Shown here piece by piece: positions 2,006 to 13,001 of a stretch of 54,723 bases of DNA. The stretch's first letter is position 1. Every line of letters starts with the position of its first letter. Source of the DNA: Nitrospira sp. (lineage in GTDB: Bacteria > Nitrospirota > Nitrospiria > Nitrospirales > Nitrospiraceae). The translations under genes were made by a program, and so were the position numbers. The stretch is from the NCBI GenBank assembly GCA_005116945.1, contig SWDH01000028.1, forward strand, positions 83,158 through 137,880, given 5' to 3'. Below the pieces are notes generated by a model, which worked only from the letters and a program-made list of their open reading frames with translations, had not been told where the DNA came from and made no database searches.

Positions 2006-3745
2006 CTAGTTATTACTGGGTGGTGCCACCTGGACCCGCTTCTCTTCAGCGCGGGAAACAACCTCGTCGTCCAGCTTGCTGAGCAAATCGTCGATATTGC
2101 GGTAGCGCAAAACCGGCTTCACGACGTTCTCGCGGCGGAAAATATTGTCGGTGGTCGCGTAGGGTTTACCGGTCTGGTTTATGATTGGGACGACGGGGAC
2201 GGAAGCGTATTGGGGCACGATCGCCTGCAGTTCGGCCTGGATACTCTTTGGTTCGCTCAAGTCCGCGACAATGAAGCGCGAGAGCGATGCAAACGCGGTG
2301 ATGGATTCAATCAAATCCCGTTCCTTCGGTTTATCGTAAACGAAAAGTTCCGGGATATAATGGTTTGGATGTTGCCTAAGATGATCCTGGATGGCCTTGA
2401 GGACCTTGAGACGCCGCCCGGTGAATCGACCGAGGATCAGCACGCGGCACTTAATCGACTCCGAGGCTATTTCAGAGAAATTCATCTGGTCGAGCGTGCG
2501 AGCCTGTTCCTGGGTTCGCTCGATCGTTTCGTTGAAGTCGCGGCGAACTTCCTCTTGCCGCTCGTTCAATGTGCGCGAGGGTTGCCTTGGAAAGAGAAGC
2601 GACTGCGGAGAGGGCATGTAGACCATGAACAAGCCCCAATCGAACATTCCTTCGTTCTGCCCCCACCGCATCAGATGCAGGCGCGCTCTGGCGACAGCTT
2701 CATCGAGCGTCAATCCGACCGCCAACGACTCATAAAGCTTCGCGCAGAACTCGATGGAACTTTGGGAGCTGACCGCACCATTCACGCCCACAAGGGCGGG
2801 AAGCCCGGCATCGAGCATCGGTTTTACGACTGGCCAATATCCGCTGTTGCAGGCGCTGAAGACTGCAAAGCGAGTTCCCCACTTTTTCATTAGCTTCGCC
2901 AGGTCCGAAGAGTAGAGCTTCGGTGCATGGAAAAGAGAGGCGGTTGTGGGCATTTCCCGAACGAGGTAGGGGCGATCCTCCGAATCGAAATCGCAGTGGC
3001 CCGCGTAGTGGAAGATCGCAGCGTCGCGCCCGCTTTCGTGTTCAAAGGCAGCCTTATCGGTGGCCACGAAGAATTCAGGCGCTATGAACTTTGCAACCGG
3101 CTTCAAGGCCTCACGCAGCAGCGAATATTCCTGGTAGACCTGCCAGCCGTCCTTTCCACCCTCCCAAAGAGTCCCAGCAAACGCGAAACCACGATCATTT
3201 TCCAAAGGTTTGAGAGCGATGACGGGATTCGCTTGTTGACGCACCAAAGAGATGCGCGGATCTAGCAGAAGAAACGACGACATGGCGTTGTCGTGGCGGC
3301 GATCGGGCCTGAGGACATATTCCCACGGCAGGTCCACCAGAGTTTCATCCAGCGCCAGCCGAATTCTAACGCCGCCCTTAAGGTGATTCATCGCATTGGC
3401 CAGACTCTGCGCGAATAATCTATAGACGGGTGCCGGAAAGAGGACGGGACAAAGCTCCTTCCCAATCTGTGCTGCTTCGTCCATTTGGATGGTCATGCGC
3501 CCCGCGCCGCCGGTGACCATGTTGCTGCGGAAACTGTCGCGAATTTTGTCGGCAAGAGCGGCCGGGAAGTCGATGGGCGCACTCTTGGCCATTTTGCCAG
3601 CTGAAGATGCAGCGACGCGGATTGAAATACGGCTGCGGCTTTTTCGCGCTCCCTCGATAACAAAGTCCGCGTAGTCGGTTGCGCCGGTGCTTGCTGCGGG
3701 GGTGGCTATGCGGCCCTGGAAGTTTGGTCGAATTGAAATGGCCAT
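2006..3745 (-). CDS. CHAT-domain protease with C-terminal TIR/deoxyribosyltransferase-like domain
   Basis: The protein has 579 residues. Residues 1-180 form the usual CHAT-associated N-terminal region (LPWEYVLRP, LLDPRISLVR). Residues 185-385 are the caspase-like CHAT fold, with dyad His250 in HYAGHCDF and Cys299 in FSACNSG. After a charged linker, residues 430-560 form a Rossmann-type module (CRVLILGRF, then FIVADLSEP) resembling TIR-like or nucleoside deoxyribosyltransferase-like sensor domains. The start is firm: AAAGGAG lies 8 bases before the ATG. CHAT proteases act as regulated peptidases in bacterial conflict and cell-death systems. The target here is unknown. The neighbourhood of cassettes, transposases and a possible nuclease fits a defence island. 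It could also be a solitary signalling protease. Confidence 0.85.
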   Translation of the reverse strand: MAISIRPNFQGRIATPAASTGATDYADFVIEGARKSRSRISIRVAASSAGKMAKSAPIDFPAALADKIRDSFRSNMVTGGAGRMTIQMDEAAQIGKELCPVLFPAPVYRLFAQSLANAMNHLKGGVRIRLALDETLVDLPWEYVLRPDRRHDNAMSSFLLLDPRISLVRQQANPVIALKPLENDRGFAFAGTLWEGGKDGWQVYQEYSLLREALKPVAKFIAPEFFVATDKAAFEHESGRDAAIFHYAGHCDFDSEDRPYLVREMPTTASLFHAPKLYSSDLAKLMKKWGTRFAVFSACNSGYWPVVKPMLDAGLPALVGVNGAVSSQSSIEFCAKLYESLAVGLTLDEAVARARLHLMRWGQNEGMFDWGLFMVYMPSPQSLLFPRQPSRTLNERQEEVRRDFNETIERTQEQARTLDQMNFSEIASESIKCRVLILGRFTGRRLKVLKAIQDHLRQHPNHYIPELFVYDKPKERDLIESITAFASLSRFIVADLSEPKSIQAELQAIVPQYASVPVVPIINQTGKPYATTDNIFRRENVVKPVLRYRNIDDLLSKLDDEVVSRAEEKRVQVAPPSNN

Positions 3746-4413: not shown

Positions 4414-4980
4414 CTACCAGCCCTCTATTGCGCCCGATGAGGCAACTGTGAGAATTCGGATTCCGGTACGGCGAATAAGCGGAGCATTGCGCCAGCCCTC
4501 CGCCAGTTCTCGGAAGCGCTCGCCGGCAGGAACCGCCACGGCCAATAGGGCATTGTCAGGGACTTCCTCGATGGTCAGCAACTGCCCCAATGCTTCGCGT
4601 AGCAATGGATATTCGGCGGAACTCTTGGACCTGGTGAGTGGTCCTTTTTTAGCTTCAGCGATGAACATGTGCCCGGTGCCGAGAGTTGTGGTTACGTCAC
4701 CCAAGCCGGATTTGGAGTGAACGTAAATTTGGACGCTTGCCCTGGGATTGACGTACACGCCTTGCCAACGTGCGGTTGTTGATTCGGCGAGCCACCCGAG
4801 CTGTCGCATGAATGCTACAATATTGAAGTGTTCGGTCTGTCCGACTTTTACTTGTGCTCCGTCGATCGCAACAGAAATCGGAGTCGTTGCGCGACCTGAA
4901 GAGGCTAAGTGCACAGCGAGACGAAGACTCACTTCAGCCTCGGACATGCGCGCGTCGAACGAAATAAATGCTCCCTCCAA
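4414..4980 (-). CDS. hypothetical protein, possible PD-(D/E)xK nuclease fold
   Basis: This 188-residue protein was not recognised as a named family. In the middle, Asp95 (SGLGD) is followed by FIAEAKKG, giving Glu109-x-Lys111. That spacing and the following helix (LLREALGQLL) resemble the PD-(D/E)xK nuclease core. The C-terminal strand-helix pattern (LLAVAVP, FRELAEGW, GIRILTV) fits the same fold. If so, it would cut nucleic acid and could be a defence or restriction component. The coordinates use a TTG codon. An internal ATG at 4947 is an equally likely start. It ends 10 bases before the broken RAYT, and a hairpin repeat lies upstream. Confidence 0.6.
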   Translation of the reverse strand: MEGAFISFDARMSEAEVSLRLAVHLASSGRATTPISVAIDGAQVKVGQTEHFNIVAFMRQLGWLAESTTARWQGVYVNPRASVQIYVHSKSGLGDVTTTLGTGHMFIAEAKKGPLTRSKSSAEYPLLREALGQLLTIEEVPDNALLAVAVPAGERFRELAEGWRNAPLIRRTGIRILTVASSGAIEGW

Positions 4981-5000
4981 GCTCGCTCGTTATCTCTCAG

Positions 5001-5095
5001 GGATGGGGGCTGATTGATCTTCCACTGCGCGCGTCCAACGAGGGCCTTCTGAGGCCGCGCGTTGCGCGAGCACAGAAGATCATCAGCCTTCATCC
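5001..5095. repeat. intergenic hairpin repeat, type A copy 1
   Basis: A 45-base core (5025-5069, starting CTGCGCGCGTCCAACGAGGG) is flanked by arms at 5001-5022 and 5075-5095 that pair with each other (GGCTGATTGATCTTC against GAAGATCATCAGCC). The same core occurs identically at 9981-10025 and in altered form at 7955-7999, but with different arms. It directly follows the cysNC stop codon and may act as a terminator or RNA-stabilising structure. Confidence 0.75.
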
Positions 5096-5102
5096 CCTCC
5101 TG

Positions 5103-6947
5103 CTAGATCGAATACTGAAAGATCGGCTTCGCCCCAATCGCTTGAGCCAGGACTCCACGGCGCTTGAGCTCTTCAAGAATCCGTCGTGTCGCCGTATCAA
5201 AATCCGTCGGGCCTGACAGCACGATATCCGTATTGGGCGGGGCTTCTTCGGGCGTCTTGCTCATGTGGACGGCGATCACCGGGACCGGATGGACGAGTGT
5301 GCGGATGACCTGTGCCGCTTCGACATAGGCCATGCCGAAGGGATTGGTCGTCGAGACGACAATCAGTCCAGTATCGACTAATAGCCGGGCCACCTCGCCA
5401 TAGCGGCGAGCCATCTCAGCCGCCTGACCTCGTTCTCCCTGCGAAAGATCTGCATCGAGACCGCGGCGGAGATTCTCTCCGTCGAGCAGATACGCATGCC
5501 GGCCATCAGCGACAAGCCTCGCCTCGATGGTCCTCGCCAGGAAAGACTTCCCTGTATGCCGCCCACCTGTCACCAGGACAATGGCGGCGCGGTGGCCATA
5601 CTGCTGTGCGCGATCCTCAACGCCGACTTGACCCTTCACCCAAGCAAAATCGCGCTGCCGCGCTTCTTCTCGGAGAAACTCCTGATCGTCATGGACCAGT
5701 TCTGTCACGATGCCACCACCGGCAATGTCGTACTCATCCACGAGCACGAACCGGCCAGTCGACTCAAATGAGGCTGAGAGGTCGAAGGCCATCGGCGTTT
5801 TGGTTCGAATGGTCAATTCAGCGACCTGATTCTTATTCACCACGTTGCTGCCTTGTTGCTGAGCCAGATCCATCGTGTCGATGATCCGGTGAATGGTCGC
5901 CACTTCACAATCCACTTCCTTCGTCGCCACTCTGAGCTGATAGCGCCGTCCACGTTCCAATGGCTTCCGGCCCAGCCAGAACACATTGGCTCGAAAGGCT
6001 GTCGACACGAGCGGGAGAGCATCTTGATGCGAAGCGACTTCTCCCCGCTCCACAAAGATCTGTTCATCGAGCGTGACACCGACCGACTGGCCTGCCTGGC
6101 CCTCTGTTGGTGGAGGATCGATGTTGAAGGCTTCGATGGACTTGACCGTCGCCCGTTTGTTCGACGGAGAAAACACGAGGGAATCGCCGACCTTCACTCG
6201 CCCGGCTGTGACCCGCCCTGTAATGATGCGGCGGGCGTCGAATTTATACACGTCTTGGATCGGCAGTCGCAGTGGCTGTTCGGAACGTCCTGGTTCCTTC
6301 CGAAAGGCACTGAGCGCGTCCAGCACGGTGGGGCCGCTGTACCACGGCATCTGCTCGCTCCGGTTGGCGATATTATCTCCGAGCTTGGCGCTGACCGGAA
6401 TAATCTGCTGGGGAACCGCCTTGAACTGCCCGAGGAACTCCCGATATTCCTTTTCAATCCCGTCGAAGACGTCCTGCCGATAACCGACCAGATCCATCTT
6501 GTTCACGACGACGGCAAACTGACGGACACCCAGAAGCGATAAGAGATAGCCGTGCTTCTTGGATTGTTCCTTCACGCCTTCCAAGGCATCGATCAACAGC
6601 AACGCCCCCTCGGCGCGCGCTGCTCCAGAGATCATGTTCTTGAGGAACTCTTTATGACCCGGCGCATCGATGATGATGTAGTACCGGCCCTTCCAGCCAA
6701 AGAAGGTCCGCGCCGTATCGATGGTGATACCCTGCTCCTGTTCTTCAAGAAACGCATCGAACAGGAACGCGTACTCGAATTCCTTCCCCTGCTGCCGACA
6801 GATCGCTTGAACCTTTTCAAGCTTGCCATCCGGCAACGACCCCGTGTCGGCATAGAGCCGCCCCAGCAGGGTAGACTTCCCATGGTCCACATGCCCGACG
6901 ATGACGATGTTCAGATTGTCCGATGGCTTTTGGGTTTGATTGTCCAT
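5103..6947 (-). CDS. cysNC: sulfate adenylyltransferase GTPase subunit fused to APS-kinase-like domain
   Basis: The protein has 614 residues. Residues 10-440 are the CysN GTPase: P-loop GHVDHGKS at 18-25, then [15 protein letters not shown] and NKMDLVG, plus the two beta-barrel domains. With CysD it makes adenosine phosphosulfate (APS) from ATP and sulfate, using GTP hydrolysis. From about 454 a CysC-like domain follows, with P-loop GGRHTGKS and [11 protein letters not shown]. It is only about 160 residues long. It lacks the FISP.R motif (here NPFGMAY) and the GLYKKARAG/FTGIDS.YE substrate lid, so APS kinase activity is doubtful. The operon also carries an APS reductase, which needs no PAPS. 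Last gene of the operon; the upstream spacer to cysD holds a hairpin repeat. Confidence 0.92.
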
Positions 6948-6963
6948 ATTCCTGTGCCTTATT

Positions 6964-7088
6964 GAGGATGATCAAAAAGACCCTCCAGCGAGGCCCGAGG
7001 CGAGTCGAAACCGGAGGCGTACCCTCTCGGGTACGTTGAGGATTTCGATGAGCCGAGAACGAAGCTGGGGGGCTTTTTCATCATCCTC
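6964..7088. repeat. intergenic hairpin repeat, type B copy 1
   Basis: Outer arms at 6964-6988 and 7064-7088 pair along almost their whole length (GAGGATGATCAAAAAG against CTTTTTCATCATCCTC). Inside are a small GTACC/GGGTACG hairpin and the words GAGAACGAAGCTGG shared with copies near 13330 and 13450. It fills the whole cysD-cysN spacer. Confidence 0.75.
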
Positions 7089-7089
7089 G

Positions 7090-7887
7090 TTACATGTAGC
7101 CGTCTTTGCGAAGCAACTCCATCCCCCGCCCTTCATCCTGCGCGCGGCCCGATCGCTCCGCGACCGTGGTGTGCCGCAACTCCTCAATGATGTCATCCAC
7201 GGATTTCGCGGTCGACTTGATCGGCGTCGTACAGGGCGCACAGCCGAGGCTGCGGTAACGGGTCCCGTCCCCTTTGTCGAGATAGAGATCGATGAAGGGA
7301 ATGTTTTCATACTTGATATATTCCCAGATGTTGATTTCCGTCCAGTCCAGCAGCGGATGGATTCGGATGTGCGTTCCAGGCGGAAACGTCGTCTTAAATT
7401 GATCCCAGAGTTCCGGCGGCTGATCACGGAAATCCCAATCGCCATGTTTGTCACGGGGCGAGAAATAGCGCTCCTTGGCTCTCGTCCCTTCCTCGTCTGC
7501 CCGTACACCGAGAATGATACCCGTGTAGCCCTTTTGCTCGATCAATTGTTTGAGCCCATTGGTTTTCAAGGCCGTACAGCAGGTCACGCGCCCCAGTGTA
7601 TGGTTCATCCCGGCCGCGAGGGCTTCCTTGTTTTGCCCCACGACCAACTTGAGACCCCACTCACGGGCGACGCGATCGCGGTATTCGATCATGGCGGGAA
7701 TTTTGTAACTCGTGTCGACGTGCAGGAGCGGGAAGGGAACGTGGCCGAAAAAGGCCTTCCTGGCCAGCCACAGCAACACGGTCGAATCTTTCCCCATCGA
7801 CCACAGCATGCCTAGATTGTCAAAATGCTTATAGGCTTCCCGAAGAATGTAGACGCTCTGGTCTTCTAGCTGACGAAGGTGTTGCAC
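7090..7887 (-). CDS. cysD: sulfate adenylyltransferase subunit 2
   Basis: The protein is 265 residues, slightly shorter than the common 300. It begins with the CysD signature [13 protein letters not shown] and has the PP-loop SMGKDS near residue 30 for binding ATP. It also has [35 protein letters not shown], and the C-terminal [10 protein letters not shown] segment. It catalyses adenylation of sulfate together with CysN, in the cytoplasm, as the first step of assimilation. It precedes cysNC with a 142-base spacer occupied by a paired repeat. The spacer to the TrpD-like gene before it holds nested repeats. No sign of damage. Confidence 0.95.
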
Positions 7888-7906
7888 GGATTCGATCCTC
7901 TCCTAG

Positions 7907-8075
7907 CAGGATGCTGAAAAAGTGGGAATGGGGTAGCTGGGATGATCCCCTTGCTCGCGCAACGCGCGGTCGCGGACTCCCCTCGTTGGACGCGCGCAGT
8001 TGGGATCATCCCACCCACCCCCTATAAACTGACCGCTCGCTGCGGCCTTGCCGGACGGCCATTTTGAGCATCCTG
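7907..8075. repeat. nested hairpin repeats: type B arms around type A copy 2
   Basis: Outer arms CAGGATGCTGAAAAAG at 7907 and TTTTGAGCATCCTG ending at 8075 belong to type B. Inside, arms at 7930-7949 and 8002-8021 pair in 18 of 20 positions (both carry GGGATGATCCC on one strand) and enclose a type A core in the opposite orientation to copies 1 and 3. The core differs from the others only in its central ten bases. It fills the spacer between the TrpD-like gene and cysD. Confidence 0.7.
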
Positions 8076-8157
8076 CGATTATTTTGCTATCATCGCCATA
8101 TCTAAGATTCAATTTACGCTTTATGTATAAACCAAGTTGCTCCGCAGCCTGCTATGC

Positions 8158-9219
8158 TCAATGCAGCCGGCTGGTTATACCGATTCCCACCGGCTCCTGA
8201 GTCAACTCCTCCAACTTACGTGCTGCCGATCCATCTTCAAGCGCTCGACGCGCCAGTGGGACGCATGACACCCACGTCGCCCCTTTGCCTGCAGCATACA
8301 GAATCAACGCCGCATTCATCACGACCCAGTCGCACGGTCCGCCAGGCACTTGATGATGAAGAATCCGTTTCAGCAGATCCGCTTCCTTGCCTCGCTGATC
8401 CGATGGGAAGCCGGCCATGTCTCGTGGCGTGCCCAGCGGCAATCCGGCATCTTTTGACGCAAACGAAAGAGGCGTAATCCGCTCATCCCGCAATTCCAGC
8501 ACTCTGGTAAGAGCCGCAATCGAGAGCTCAGGATCGCCTTCCACTCCACTCACCACCAACGCCCGCGAGCCACCGAGCATCCGCAACACTTCAGCCGTCT
8601 TTTCAAAATGAGGAGGATGGGACAGGCCGACGATCTGCGACAAGGTGCGCGCCGGGTTCAACAGCCTGGCAATCGGATGAAAAAGATTCCGCGCTCCCAG
8701 CTCTTGACGCATCTCTAAAAATCGATAGACCGCAGGGTGGTAGAGCGCGATGTCGAGATAGGCGAATCCGTGCTGTACTACCGCCTCTGCTGCGACTTTT
8801 GGCTCCATATCGATCGACAAGCCCAAGGCCTTGAGCACCCCGGCATTGCCCGCGCGACCGGGTATCCCGTCATATCCATGCATCAAGACCGATGCGCCTG
8901 CCGACGCAGCCACAATGGCAGCGGCCGCAAGGGCATGGAAGGTTTCTTGTTTCCCCGCGTAACTCGGTAGATCCACGACGCCGAGTTCTCGCGGAATCGG
9001 CACGGGCGCCACATAGGAGCGCGCGGCTGCGGTCATTGAGGCCAGTTCGGTGACGGACTCCATCTTGACCCGCATGGCCATGAGAAAGGCCCCGACCTGC
9101 GCCTGCGTGGCATCCCCCTCAATGAGCGCTTTCATCGCCCGCTTCGCCTCGTCCCAGGTGAGGTCCTTAGCCGCTCGCGGCCCCTTGGCAATCTTGGCGA
9201 TAAATTCTTGCATCGACAT
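8158..9219 (-). CDS. anthranilate phosphoribosyltransferase-like (TrpD family) protein in cys operon
   Basis: The protein has 353 residues from ATG 9219, whose A is the last base of the cysH stop (TAATG). That makes the genes translationally coupled and fixes the start. The helical N-terminal domain (DLTWDEAKRAMKALIEGDAT, FLMAMRVKMES) and the later GNAGVLKALG match glycosyltransferase family 3/TrpD. The PRPP-binding GTGGD.....N.ST motif of real TrpD is missing; VVDLPSYAGKQETFHAL stands in its place. It is therefore unlikely to make phosphoribosyl anthranilate. Its place between cysH and cysD suggests a role in sulfur or siroheme metabolism, but that is inference only. Confidence 0.8.
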   Translation of the reverse strand: MSMQEFIAKIAKGPRAAKDLTWDEAKRAMKALIEGDATQAQVGAFLMAMRVKMESVTELASMTAAARSYVAPVPIPRELGVVDLPSYAGKQETFHALAAAAIVAASAGASVLMHGYDGIPGRAGNAGVLKALGLSIDMEPKVAAEAVVQHGFAYLDIALYHPAVYRFLEMRQELGARNLFHPIARLLNPARTLSQIVGLSHPPHFEKTAEVLRMLGGSRALVVSGVEGDPELSIAALTRVLELRDERITPLSFASKDAGLPLGTPRDMAGFPSDQRGKEADLLKRILHHQVPGGPCDWVVMNAALILYAAGKGATWVSCVPLARRALEDGSAARKLEELTQEPVGIGITSRLH

Positions 9220-9950
9220 TATGAGGCCTTGTGTAATCCGCACTCGGTCTTGGTAAAGTTTTTCCACCGTCCCGCGCGGGGGTCTTCGCCGGACATCACC
9301 GGGCTTGTGCAGTAGGTGCAGCCGATGCTGGGATAGTTGCGGTCATGCAACTCGTTGTAGGGCACTTCATTGACACGAATGTAGGTCCAGACATCTTCCC
9401 ACGTCCACTTCGCGAGTGGATTGACTTTCGCCAACTGAAACTTCTGGTCCCACTCGATCAATTTCGCATTGGCTCTCGTGGGAGATTGATCCCGCCTGAT
9501 CCCGGTGATCCAGGCGTCGAATCCCTTCAGCACACGGGTGAGCGGCTCCACTTTTCGCAGCTCACAACATTGATCGGGCTGGCGCGCCCATAGGGCCTCG
9601 CCATGCTGAGCTGCCTGTTGCTCCGGCGTGAGCAACGATTTCACCTGCATCACTTGTTGAGGCTGCAACCCGTAGCGCTCGATTACGCGATCGCGCGTAG
9701 CATAGGTCTCGGGAAAGAGAAAATCCGTGTCGAGATAGAACAGCGGCACGGAGGGATCGATGCGGTGAACCATGTCCAGGAGCACGACGTCCTCCGCCCC
9801 GAAACTGCAAGCGAGCACAATCTTCGGCGCATACCGTTCGATTGCCGCAGCCAGCACCTCTTGCGGCTGCTTCATCTCGAACGACTCACCCCACGCCTTC
9901 AGTTCTTCCAATGAGAGACTTGTCATCGCGCTCTTTTTACTCCCACTCAC
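9219..9950 (-). CDS. cysH: assimilatory adenylylsulfate (APS) reductase
   Basis: The protein has 243 residues. LACSFGAEDVVLLDM is the adenylyl-sulfate-binding PP-loop region and DTDFLFPETY follows. Cys128-Cys129 (in QCCELRK) and Cys211/Cys214 (GCTYC) are the ligands of a 4Fe-4S cluster, present in APS but not in classical PAPS reductases. Cys237 in ECGLH near the C-terminus is the catalytic cysteine. The enzyme reduces APS to sulfite with thioredoxin or glutathione-type electrons. This fits an operon lacking a sound APS kinase. An internal Met9 is an alternative start. It overlaps the next gene by one base; a type A repeat separates it from the sulfite reductase gene upstream. Confidence 0.94.
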   Translation of the reverse strand: MSGSKKSAMTSLSLEELKAWGESFEMKQPQEVLAAAIERYAPKIVLACSFGAEDVVLLDMVHRIDPSVPLFYLDTDFLFPETYATRDRVIERYGLQPQQVMQVKSLLTPEQQAAQHGEALWARQPDQCCELRKVEPLTRVLKGFDAWITGIRRDQSPTRANAKLIEWDQKFQLAKVNPLAKWTWEDVWTYIRVNEVPYNELHDRNYPSIGCTYCTSPVMSGEDPRAGRWKNFTKTECGLHKAS

Positions 9951-9962
9951 ACTTCAAGCGGG

Positions 9963-10044
9963 GAGAGGGATGATTTCCGACTGCGCGCGTCCAACGAGGG
10001 CCTTCTGAGGCCGCGCGTTGCGCGAACAAAGGAAACATCCCTCT
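9963..10044. repeat. intergenic hairpin repeat, type A copy 3
   Basis: The core at 9981-10025 is identical over 45 bases to that at 5025-5069. Its arms (AGAGGGATGATTTCC at 9964-9978 and GGAAACATCCCTCT at 10031-10044) differ from those of copy 1 yet pair with each other. It lies between the sulfite reductase stop and the cysH start. Confidence 0.75.
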
Positions 10045-10050
10045 GCCACG

Positions 10051-12543
10051 CTATTCCACTTTTTCGACCAGAATCCGGAAATGATCTGCGGCGGCTTCGA
10101 GTGGTTCCTGCAGCAGCAACAGATGTCCGTCGTTTTTCAAACTCATCGGAACATTCTTAATCGGTTCACCTGCATCGAGCCAAACCTCCAACCGTTCACC
10201 TGCATCCATCATCTCCAGCTTCAGTTTCGTTTTTACATAATTCATGGGGCAGGCAACTCCGCGCAAATCGTAGACCGGTGCGCTGGATGCAGCGGGCGTA
10301 GATACGGAAGAAACCGGCTTGACCTCAGGCTGTACATTGGTCGTCACCGCCGCAGCCTTCTCCGCTGGCGCCAATTTCAGATCTTTGCCCATCTGCTCCG
10401 TGGCGGCACGACAAGCGTCGACGAATCCTTTGGCAAACACCATCTTGTCGCGGGCCGATTCGCCAGTCGTGTCCTTGGGCCCTAGATCGCCGACGCTCTG
10501 TCTCAAGTCCCGATACATGGCCGGCACAACGCCTTTTTGTGCGATCCGGATGTCGAATTCGATGAAGGTTTCTGAATCCGTTGAGGGTTCAAGTCCTTCC
10601 GTGACCAGCAAGGCCTTGGCAGCGGCTAACACCGCGCGATACGACTTGTTCACCGAGACGGAATACTGATGGTTATCGACGAGTAGTTTCGCCTGATAGA
10701 GTTCTTGATCGGCTTCGAGAATGCCGTTCTCAATCATTTCAAGCGCGCCACCTGCGCACTCACCTGGCCCGAGATCTTCTAGGACAAATTCTGCTTCGCC
10801 TTCCCAGTCGTAGTAAAACGTTGGATCGTCTTGAAAGGACGGCACGATGGTGTATGGGATCAATGCATCCTTGAGTTTGATCTTGCCAACGCGATCGATG
10901 AAAGCCGGCAGCCCTTCGCCGGAGAGACGGTCACGCCGATACACCTCGATCAAGTGCGTAATCGCCGCCGACACACTCTTAGCCGGCAACTTCACCACCA
11001 TCTGTCCGATCTTTGCCGCCCCGTCAACCCGTCCGCCTAAATGCAATTCATAGAAGGGCGCGACATGCTCGCCAATGCGCTTCCCCACTCCATGCAAGCC
11101 GATTGTGGCGATATGGTGTTGGGCGCAGGAATTGTGGCACCCGCTGATCTTCACACTCACATCCTTCAGATCCTCGGGAACCCGACCAGCCGGGAACACC
11201 TCTGCCAACGCTCGCGCGAGCCCCTTTGAAGACGTGATCCCCAAGCCGCATGTGTCGGTGCCGGGGCAGGCGATAATATCTTCGACCAACTCCGCGCCGG
11301 GATCAGCCAGCCCATGTGAGGCCAAGTCGGCGTAGAGGTCGGCAATGCGCGATTCCGGTATCCATCGAATGATCATATTTTGATTGATCGTTGTCCGAAT
11401 GTTGCCATTGGAGTAGCGATCCGCAAGATCGGCGATGTGCAACATCTGCTCTGCCGTCAGATCACCCATGAATAATTTGGTCACGGCGGCGACATAGCCC
11501 TCTTGTTTCTGACGCACCACGTTGGTCCGACGCCACATCTCGAACGGCGTCTCCACCGGCGCGCCATTGGCATGACCATTAGTCTGCACAGCTGCCCGCT
11601 TCGACCCATTCGACGTTGGCATGATGAGGGGGACGGGCTCATCCGGATACGACAACAATTTGATCGGCTCATGCGTCGGACGCGCATGGCCCATCGACAC
11701 ATAGGCCTCTTCCCATCGACGCTTGAATTCCGCGAAGCCCAGCTTTTCGATGACAAACTTCATCCGGGCTTTCGTGCGATTTTTTCGATTGCCCAAGGTA
11801 TCGAACACCCGAATCACGGCTTCCACACTCGGGATGAGCTCGTCCATCGGGGTGAATTCACGAAGAACCTGCGCGATTCGTGGGGCTGAACCCAGGCCGC
11901 CACCGGCGACCATGCGAAAGCCGATGACTCCATCCGCGCGCCTGGCGGCGAGAAGTCCGATATCGTGAATCGGCGTGAGCGCACAGTCCTGTTTGCAGCC
12001 CGAAAAGGCAATTTTAAATTTGCGCGGGAGGCTCTGGTTTAGCGGATTCCGCAGCAGATGCAGCGCAACGGTTTTCGCATAGGGCGTCACGTCGAAGACT
12101 TCGCCCTGACAGATCCCGGCAAGGTGGCAAGCCGTGACGTTGCGGACCGTGTTGGCGCAGGCTTCTCTCGTGGTCAAGCCGACTTCAGCCAGCCCGCGCA
12201 TGATGGTCGGGACGTCCTGTAATTCAACAAAATGCAGCTGAATATCCTGACGCGTGGTGACATGGCCGACGCCGGTCGCATAGTGTTCGGTGAGTTCTGC
12301 AACCCGGCGGAGCTGATTCGCCGTCAACCCCCCGAAGGGAATCTTGATACGGACCATCTGGACACCGGCCTGCCGTTGGCCGTAAATGCCGTACTGCAGA
12401 CGGAAGGGCCTGAAAAGATCGCCTGACACATCGCCGGACGCCATGCGCTTGGCCTCGGCCTCGAAGGTCTCGATCTCCTCCAGAATGTCAGGAGGAATAG
12501 GCTCCGTCTTTACTGAAACCGTGCTGAGTAATGTAGGACTCAT
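10051..12543 (-). CDS. nitrite/sulfite reductase fused to HEPN-like and TusA domains
   Basis: The protein has 830 residues from ATG 12543, which has a GAGG ribosome site 7 bases before it; a TTG 12 bases upstream is less likely. Residues 1-560 form the siroheme/4Fe-4S reductase with two ferredoxin-like half-repeats. Cluster and siroheme cysteines are Cys426 and Cys432 (CPGTDTCG) and Cys469 and Cys473 (GCHNSC). Residues of about 600-720 are helical and resemble a HEPN domain (VNKSYRAVLAAAKALL). Residues of about 755-830 are TusA/SirA-like, with Cys765 in ACPMNYVKTKL. Sulfite is reduced to sulfide; the TusA domain could accept sulfur as persulfide. It overlaps or abuts the rrf2 gene. The operon context favours sulfite over nitrite as substrate. 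Confidence 0.9.
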   Translation of the reverse strand: MSPTLLSTVSVKTEPIPPDILEEIETFEAEAKRMASGDVSGDLFRPFRLQYGIYGQRQAGVQMVRIKIPFGGLTANQLRRVAELTEHYATGVGHVTTRQDIQLHFVELQDVPTIMRGLAEVGLTTREACANTVRNVTACHLAGICQGEVFDVTPYAKTVALHLLRNPLNQSLPRKFKIAFSGCKQDCALTPIHDIGLLAARRADGVIGFRMVAGGGLGSAPRIAQVLREFTPMDELIPSVEAVIRVFDTLGNRKNRTKARMKFVIEKLGFAEFKRRWEEAYVSMGHARPTHEPIKLLSYPDEPVPLIMPTSNGSKRAAVQTNGHANGAPVETPFEMWRRTNVVRQKQEGYVAAVTKLFMGDLTAEQMLHIADLADRYSNGNIRTTINQNMIIRWIPESRIADLYADLASHGLADPGAELVEDIIACPGTDTCGLGITSSKGLARALAEVFPAGRVPEDLKDVSVKISGCHNSCAQHHIATIGLHGVGKRIGEHVAPFYELHLGGRVDGAAKIGQMVVKLPAKSVSAAITHLIEVYRRDRLSGEGLPAFIDRVGKIKLKDALIPYTIVPSFQDDPTFYYDWEGEAEFVLEDLGPGECAGGALEMIENGILEADQELYQAKLLVDNHQYSVSVNKSYRAVLAAAKALLVTEGLEPSTDSETFIEFDIRIAQKGVVPAMYRDLRQSVGDLGPKDTTGESARDKMVFAKGFVDACRAATEQMGKDLKLAPAEKAAAVTTNVQPEVKPVSSVSTPAASSAPVYDLRGVACPMNYVKTKLKLEMMDAGERLEVWLDAGEPIKNVPMSLKNDGHLLLLQEPLEAAADHFRILVEKVE

Positions 12544-12551
12544 GGGTGACC

Positions 12552-13001
12552 TCAAATGTGATACATCAACGACCGCTCTTGCTCGATCACTCGCTGCTGT
12601 CCGGCTAATTCCTCCACGCTGATGGCCTCAAGAACATGGCGCTCGGCTTGATGCACCTGCTCCCAAATTTTCCCGAGTAATAGTTCCGGTTTACTGGGTC
12701 GTCGCCCCTGCCCACGTTCAGTTCCACCATTCGAGAATAACAATGGACCATCGAGCGCCTCAAGGATCTCGACGACCGATACCTCAGATGGTTTCTTTGA
12801 GAGTACGTACCCCCCTTGGGCTCCACGAAGACTCGACACAAGGCCGGCCTTCTTCATCCCATGCAGGACCTGCTCAAGAAAGCGAGCGGGAATGGCCTGT
12901 CGACGGGCAATTGTTTTGGCTTGGACAGGCGCTGTCCCACGCTGCATGGCCAGGTCAACAGCCGCCATAATTCCATAGGTTGCTCTAAGCGATACTTTCA
13001 T
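12552..13001 (-). CDS. Rrf2-family transcriptional regulator of the cys operon (CymR-like)
   Basis: The protein has 149 residues. MKVSLRATYGIMAAVDLA and the winged helix (AIPARFLEQVLHGMKKAGLV, then GAQGGYVLSK) are typical of Rrf2. It contains no cysteine at all, so it cannot hold the Fe-S cluster of IscR or NsrR. It is more like CymR, which senses cysteine supply. It is the first gene of the sulfate-assimilation operon and its stop abuts the sulfite reductase start. A palindrome ATTCC-N4-GGAAT lies 8 bases before its own start. This suggests autoregulation and control of the whole operon by cysteine or sulfide status. Confidence 0.9.
   Translation of the reverse strand: MKVSLRATYGIMAAVDLAMQRGTAPVQAKTIARRQAIPARFLEQVLHGMKKAGLVSSLRGAQGGYVLSKKPSEVSVVEILEALDGPLLFSNGGTERGQGRRPSKPELLLGKIWEQVHQAERHVLEAISVEELAGQQRVIEQERSLMYHI

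Follow-up and report, generated by a model that had tools for sequence, protein, structure and literature searches.

How can a genomic repeat keep a constant core while the sequences on either side of it are unrelated from copy to copy and yet pair with each other within every copy? Three hairpins of this kind lie in a 54,723-nucleotide (nt) stretch of a Nitrospira sp. genome (assembly GCA_005116945.1, contig SWDH01000028.1, positions 83,158–137,880; the whole stretch is called the window below), where a preliminary description had noticed them. They belong to a family of at least 128 copies in this genome, whose conserved part is the structure of the tip, whose two strands differ in their mispairs and whose members are repeatedly found within one another's loops. 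With somewhat more confidence than doubt, we favour the view that the family consists of non-autonomous, strand-specific mobile DNA hairpins that target their own loops and are moved by a putative trans-acting recombinase. The features concerned, in window coordinates, are:

5001–5097, plus strand: copy 1, an A-type hairpin (arms 5001–5025 and 5073–5097, core 5026–5072).
4947–5101, plus strand: 155-bp A-type repeat unit containing copy 1.
7929–8021, minus strand: copy 2, a C-type hairpin (core 7952–7998).
7906–8076, unstranded: terminal-inverted-repeat element in which copy 2 is nested (GCAGGATGCTGAAAAAG at 7906–7922, CATTTTGAGCATCCTGC at 8060–8076).
9961–10046, plus strand: copy 3 (core 9982–10028), separated on the right by about 5 nt from the stop of a sulfite reductase-type gene (10051).

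The three copies are real, with coordinates essentially as first given, and all fold as long hairpins on either strand (z −4.1 to −7.3). Folding energies of copies 1, 2 and 3 were −62.7, −60.9 and −50.8 kcal/mol (z −7.3, −5.7 and −4.9), and no shuffled sequence did as well. Arm sequences are unrelated between the copies and complementary within each. The constant 45-base core of the preliminary description holds for copies 1 and 3, which share about 45 identical bases; copy 2 deviates in the apical loop, and across the family the core sequence is constant only within a sub-type. The 155-bp unit begins with a host hairpin's left half-core, which is interrupted (TGCGCGCGTCGAACGA, 4947–4962), and runs through a tail with TCCAAGCTCGCTCGTT to copy 1. 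Such units occur at many places across the other Nitrospira genomes (hereafter congeners, G001, G017, G023 and G042 among them; the genome holding the window is G000) at roughly 90–98% identity, and this high cross-species identity suggests that A-type units have spread recently.

Allowing no more than one mismatch, the 14-mer GCGCGTCCAACGAG, which opens the core, occurs at 78 places in the genome, compared with 9 for the reversed control; the figure of at least 128 copies comes from matches to a covariance model seeded with eleven copies, which was used for the family search. All 24 congeners searched were positive, with 14 to at least about 100 copies each, and among genomes from other genera of the same order 15 of 16 gave no match and one gave a single weak match. 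The matches listed in a pattern scan across named genomes all came from Nitrospira or Nitrospirota; the complete genome of Candidatus Nitrospira defluvii is one of them, as are assemblies CG24A, C and E. A phage or plasmid origin was rejected because nothing in the phage and plasmid collections matched the 155-bp unit of copy 1. Searches of the open literature gave no previous description of the element in Nitrospira (subscription papers not covered).

The core forms the apical stem, and it is conserved mainly in structure. Compensatory changes include CGCG/CGCG, CGCA/TGCG and GCCG/CGGG, with CAACG/CGTTG, GAACG/CGTTC and GAGCG/CGCTC as a further set. Across 129 aligned matches, standard pairs filled 88.4% of cells, compared with 70.0% after shuffling and 33–54% with partners slid, in an alignment that was fitted to the structure, which favours such pairing, and whose G000 loci were mostly retrieved with a model that includes the arms. 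Covariation was present in all three helices (score 0.497, against 0.181). Within these freely varying helices stand near-invariant unpaired positions (T43, C44, G38, A80, A50, G68 and G70) and fixed unpaired features (a TC bulge, a G opposite A, an A opposite G and a TC in the loop), which we take, from the alignment, to be the trace of recognition of a folded strand.

The arms fall into 50 clusters across the 128 copies. A check independent of the structural fit is arm pairing in elements located through their core sequence. In G000, mean pairing was 13.3 with an arm's own partner, 6.3 (standard deviation 3.5) when arms were swapped between copies and 2.5 when the right arm was shuffled. Other genomes supplied 208 elements, the majority retrieved by core pattern or flanks, in which own partners scored 13.9 and swapped partners 6.0. 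The pairing of mutually unrelated arms first described from three copies is thus seen throughout the family, and the arms covary in other genomes too.

The two strands of the element are not equivalent. We counted G.T and A.C pairs with Watson–Crick neighbours, which the aligner treats alike, on the top strand as defined by the core. G000 held 156 G.T and 37 A.C pairs; the excess remained when copies were collapsed into the 50 arm clusters (98 versus 31) or reduced to a single copy per small cluster (47 versus 11), and other genomes gave 232 G.T to 69 A.C. It persisted in copies antisense to neighbouring genes (69:12) and in sense copies (20:2). A transcription-linked mutation bias should flip sign between sense and antisense copies, and the G.T excess does not. 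The simplest reading of these counts would be that the top strand must fold, as single-stranded DNA or as RNA from that strand. The asymmetry is also consistent, if indirectly, with strand-specific cleavage of single-stranded DNA hairpins of the IS200/IS605 kind.

Position relative to genes bears on a different account, in which the hairpin is an RNA-level element that acts at mRNA 3' ends (in stability, processing or termination) and selection on the RNA keeps the arms paired. Genes were predicted with a simple codon-usage caller that overlooked cysH in the window, and the counts that follow are accordingly approximate. Of 67 copies lying between co-directional genes, 56 are oriented alike, antisense to those genes. 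In 86 elements the right-hand gene points at the element, and 51 of them are within 30 nt of that gene's stop codon, compared with 7 of 114 elements that close to a gene on the left. Copy 1, for instance, is antisense to the minus-strand genes on both sides and is separated on the right by about 6 nt from the cysNC stop (5103). Both figures fit an RNA-level element, as does the helix covariation; the stop-codon proximity itself could reflect either insertion preference or selection. However, the mRNA of antisense copies carries the bottom strand, in which G.T becomes A.C, so that an mRNA hairpin predicts the opposite sign in those copies; the excess they retain on the top strand is hard to square with an mRNA hairpin and points to a single folded strand as what is recognised. 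Rfam covariance models gave nothing at the gathering score and only chance-level matches at a relaxed threshold, and presence of the element differs between close relatives. An antisense transcript could rescue the RNA account, which we nonetheless consider unlikely. Of the earlier suggestion that the folded RNA is selected, the constraint on the fold is supported. As a separate observation, the element with GCAGGATGCTGAAAAAG ends (7906–8076 and the surroundings of other C-type copies) often abuts a stop codon, and the stop sometimes lies at the element edge (CATCCTGC|TA).

Whole hairpins are found within the loops of other family members, repeatedly at the TTC of the apical loop, and many half-cores are interrupted. 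In six copies, the outer half-arms flanking a complete hairpin pair well; a few random half-arm pairings score similarly, and the weaker of these six cases are uncertain. The right end of about 17 inserts, often CCCATC, is joined to (C)TTC of the host apical loop. These junctions span several insert types and hosts with different loops, and other genomes add about 5 more at the TTC of a host loop. In clear cases the host loop is retained on the left up to TTC, as in GGGCCTTC–insert–TTCTGAGGCC at C14:45125; several nested inserts have TTC on both sides, which is compatible with target-site duplication or with an element end. A before-and-after pair is available at C40:112767, where one and the same host hairpin is intact in G042 and contains an A-type hairpin in G000. 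The preliminary description had envisaged a core inserting into the loops of existing hairpins such as terminators. Insertion into loops is indeed seen, and what inserts is the whole hairpin with its tails rather than the bare core; the hosts seen are mostly family members or the GCAGGATGCT terminal-inverted-repeat element rather than demonstrated terminators. A further short hairpin family, CACCCGCCCACCCACTGGCACGCCGAGACGTGCC (loci L109, L088, L111 and others), also occurs repeatedly inside broken cores and inside the GCAGGATGCT element, with a junction point of its own.

Orthologous sites show both gain or loss of the element and replacement of its arms. The copy 2 hairpin is present at the same site in G017 and absent from most congeners, which have a spacer of 18–48 nt and no hairpin; a pre-existing hairpin is therefore not always needed, and the expectation that empty sites would hold an intact hairpin is borne out at C40:112767 but not here. 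In three congeners the outer repeat element is present at the copy 2 site and encloses another hairpin, and relatives carry a GTACC..GGTAC hairpin within the same outer repeats. At the site of copy 3, G023, G017 and four more genomes have a hairpin of the same orientation with unrelated arms, and at C22:268047 orientation is likewise the same and arms are unrelated in seven genomes including G000. Among orthologous loci retrieved by their flanks alone (loci found by core pattern were left out as biased towards element presence), 31 lacked the element, 12 had other arms and 6 had the same arms, a tally that is a description and not a rate because many of the 31 stem from the copy 2 site. At two G042 sites, L155 and L161, a repeat with inverted GTGAAACG and CGTTTCAC parts occupies the place of a family element in G000.

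Modules have also been exchanged between hairpins. As many as four arm clusters carry an identical 47-nt core, and several core types occur within a single arm cluster; C35:91219 and its ortholog L223 have 95–96% identical flanks and the same arms with a different apical loop, and a deletion chimera lies at C23:61170. Cores or apical loops were probably exchanged between hairpins by gene conversion, a swapping between differing arms that is close in spirit to the original core-into-hairpin idea. These cases favour an account with no transposition at all, in which template switching keeps the arms complementary, and gene conversion and core recombination spread both copies and nested inserts. 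Template switching, however, predicts no asymmetry between G.T and A.C, and the asymmetry observed is strong. Copy 2, at a site that is hairpin-free in most congeners, requires insertion or repeated loss, and the TTC junction is common to several insert and host types. We therefore regard spread without transposition as improbable.

Several observations weigh against mobile hairpins driven by a loop-targeting recombinase. The junction differs by sub-type: A-type inserts join at GTTC of the host core, and most C-type copies, copy 2 included, sit inside the terminal-inverted-repeat element at another junction point. Gene conversion is a possible source of the insert at C40:112767, because the same composite occurs elsewhere in G000, and some nesting, this case included, could have spread by recombination between cores. 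With replication direction read from GC skew, there was no replication-strand preference outside tandem-gene contexts, and the lagging-strand template preference predicted by IS200/IS605 chemistry was not seen. Genes between neighbouring copies revealed no shared transposase by eye (no family search was run). Y1/RAYT genes were found in 19 of 32 congeners and are absent from 13, copy-rich genomes included; one of these, G001, is 99% complete and has at least 85 copies. The 90 kb around Y1 genes contained 2 elements, against about 3.4 expected at average density, and thus showed no linkage. The genes between neighbouring copies were ordinary ones, with several apparent toxin–antitoxin pairs by eye; such small gene pairs lie in G000 at C12:32619–33322, C22:268946–269408 and C40:55603–56233.

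The enzyme search also bears on the idea that these are REP-like elements (REP, repetitive extragenic palindrome) mobilised by a genomic Y1 (RAYT/TnpA) transposase. High copy number, intergenic palindromes, a strand-specific hairpin, junctions 3' of a short fixed motif and the three Y1_Tnp matches in G000 all fit that idea, but the elements have no GTAG foot and their CGTC is not an unpaired end tag. We rejected Y1_Tnp/RAYT as the partner, as it is neither linked to the elements nor universal, and hold this origin to be very improbable.

On the reading as strand-specific hairpins that target their own loops, each unit has a pyrimidine-rich left tail, a long stem that is freely variable but pairs, the apical core and a short right tail. 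The core would be read by its shape and its fixed unpaired bases (the TC bulge, G opposite A, A opposite G and loop TC), with its top strand as the form required to fold. We infer a trans-acting recombinase that binds the folded single strand, the putative mobile form, and, in single-stranded DNA, attaches the unit on the 3' side of TTC. Its targets would be the loops of resident hairpins, and new hairpins would therefore enter old ones, the presumed direction of the reaction. Outer arms would decay later, and a site would retain a hairpin of the same orientation while its arms turn over.

Several known systems share parts of this design. In integron attC sites one folded strand is active, the stem sequence is free and extrahelical bases are fixed; the sites lie just after stop codons, with the active strand antisense to the gene, and have conserved boxes at the hairpin base and a variable tip. 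The Nitrospira hairpins resemble attC in their one folded strand, free stem sequence, fixed extrahelical bases and antisense position after stop codons. They differ in that the conserved part is apical and the base is the variable arm, and the flanking genes are ordinary chromosomal genes common across species. Considered for its GTCCAAC/GTT motifs and stop-codon position, attC was rejected: the base lacks RYYYAAC/GTTRRRY boxes and the geometry is inverted. Miniature inverted-repeat transposable elements (MITEs) are defined by constant terminal inverted repeats; they too are small, non-autonomous intergenic repeats with copies present or absent between species, but the outer arms here differ by copy (50 clusters in 128 copies) and provide no constant terminal inverted repeats, and MITEs were set aside.

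IS200/IS605 ends (PMC6006769) are likewise single-stranded DNA hairpins, with insertion 3' of a short target motif and no conventional terminal inverted repeats. The Nitrospira element differs in having no transposase gene, a single internal hairpin and no replication-strand bias, and with no tnpA within or linked to it this assignment was rejected. REPs are 20–40 bp long, their stem is conserved and one end carries an unpaired tag; RAYT systems recognise single-stranded DNA hairpins, and CGTC REPs are also without a known enzyme (PMC3733652, PMC6006769). REPs and bacterial interspersed mosaic elements (BIMEs) of the GTAG and CGTC super-families resemble the present family in being intergenic palindromes that are numerous in each genome and frequently close to the 3' ends of genes, and in forming composites; the Nitrospira hairpin, in contrast, is about 90 nt long with arms free in sequence and its conserved part at the tip. 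GTAG REPs were rejected because the hairpin feet vary by arm type, with no constant GTAG/GTGG tag, and no element-flanked RAYT gene was found. CGTC REPs, suggested by CGTC in the core, are defined by an unpaired CGTC at one end, an 8–9-bp stem starting with A/T pairs and a CCA tail (PMC3733652); here CGTC is internal, its CG is paired, CATC occurs as a variant and the stem greatly exceeds that length, and this candidate was dropped. The short palindromic repeats of Volvox carteri organelles are also small, selfish, intergenic hairpins, often inserted into one another as composites; they average 50 nt and are AT-rich in the mitochondrion, and no mobilising mechanism was settled for them (PMC2670323). 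They are organellar, and are not known to have a structured core with a fixed bulge, strand asymmetry or a TTC loop junction.

Another hairpin in the window serves for comparison:

6964–7088, unstranded: hairpin lying between cysNC and cysD, with a GTAC core, from a separate family of long hairpins outside the one described here.

It occurs in nearly all congeners examined, and its arms covary strongly (GAGGATGATCAAAAAG and CAGAATGTTCAAACAGGCA types). The sulfite reductase-type gene next to copy 3 (10051–12555) encodes a predicted protein in which nitrite/sulfite reductase domains are combined with a TusA domain at the C terminus and which matches HEPN weakly, and 2006–3745 encodes a predicted CHAT-domain protein.

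If a dedicated loop-targeting recombinase exists, there is a case for something new in kind. More tentatively, and against our own expectation, the family may represent a new class of mobile DNA, folded-single-strand hairpins whose tip shape would be read by a putative recombinase and which would insert into the loops of old hairpins; sites would then be inherited as hairpins while their stem sequence is replaced. Bacterial palindromic repeats are normally recognised by a fixed stem sequence, and here the tip is structured and the stem free, which could let such elements evade repeat finders. Each genome may offer more than 100 natural variants, with covariation, of one recognition site in single-stranded DNA (or RNA), so that the partner protein could be sought biochemically. 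Self-targeted loop nesting would provide a concrete mechanism for an unexplained pattern in organelles, and gene borders are affected throughout Nitrospira, comammox species included.

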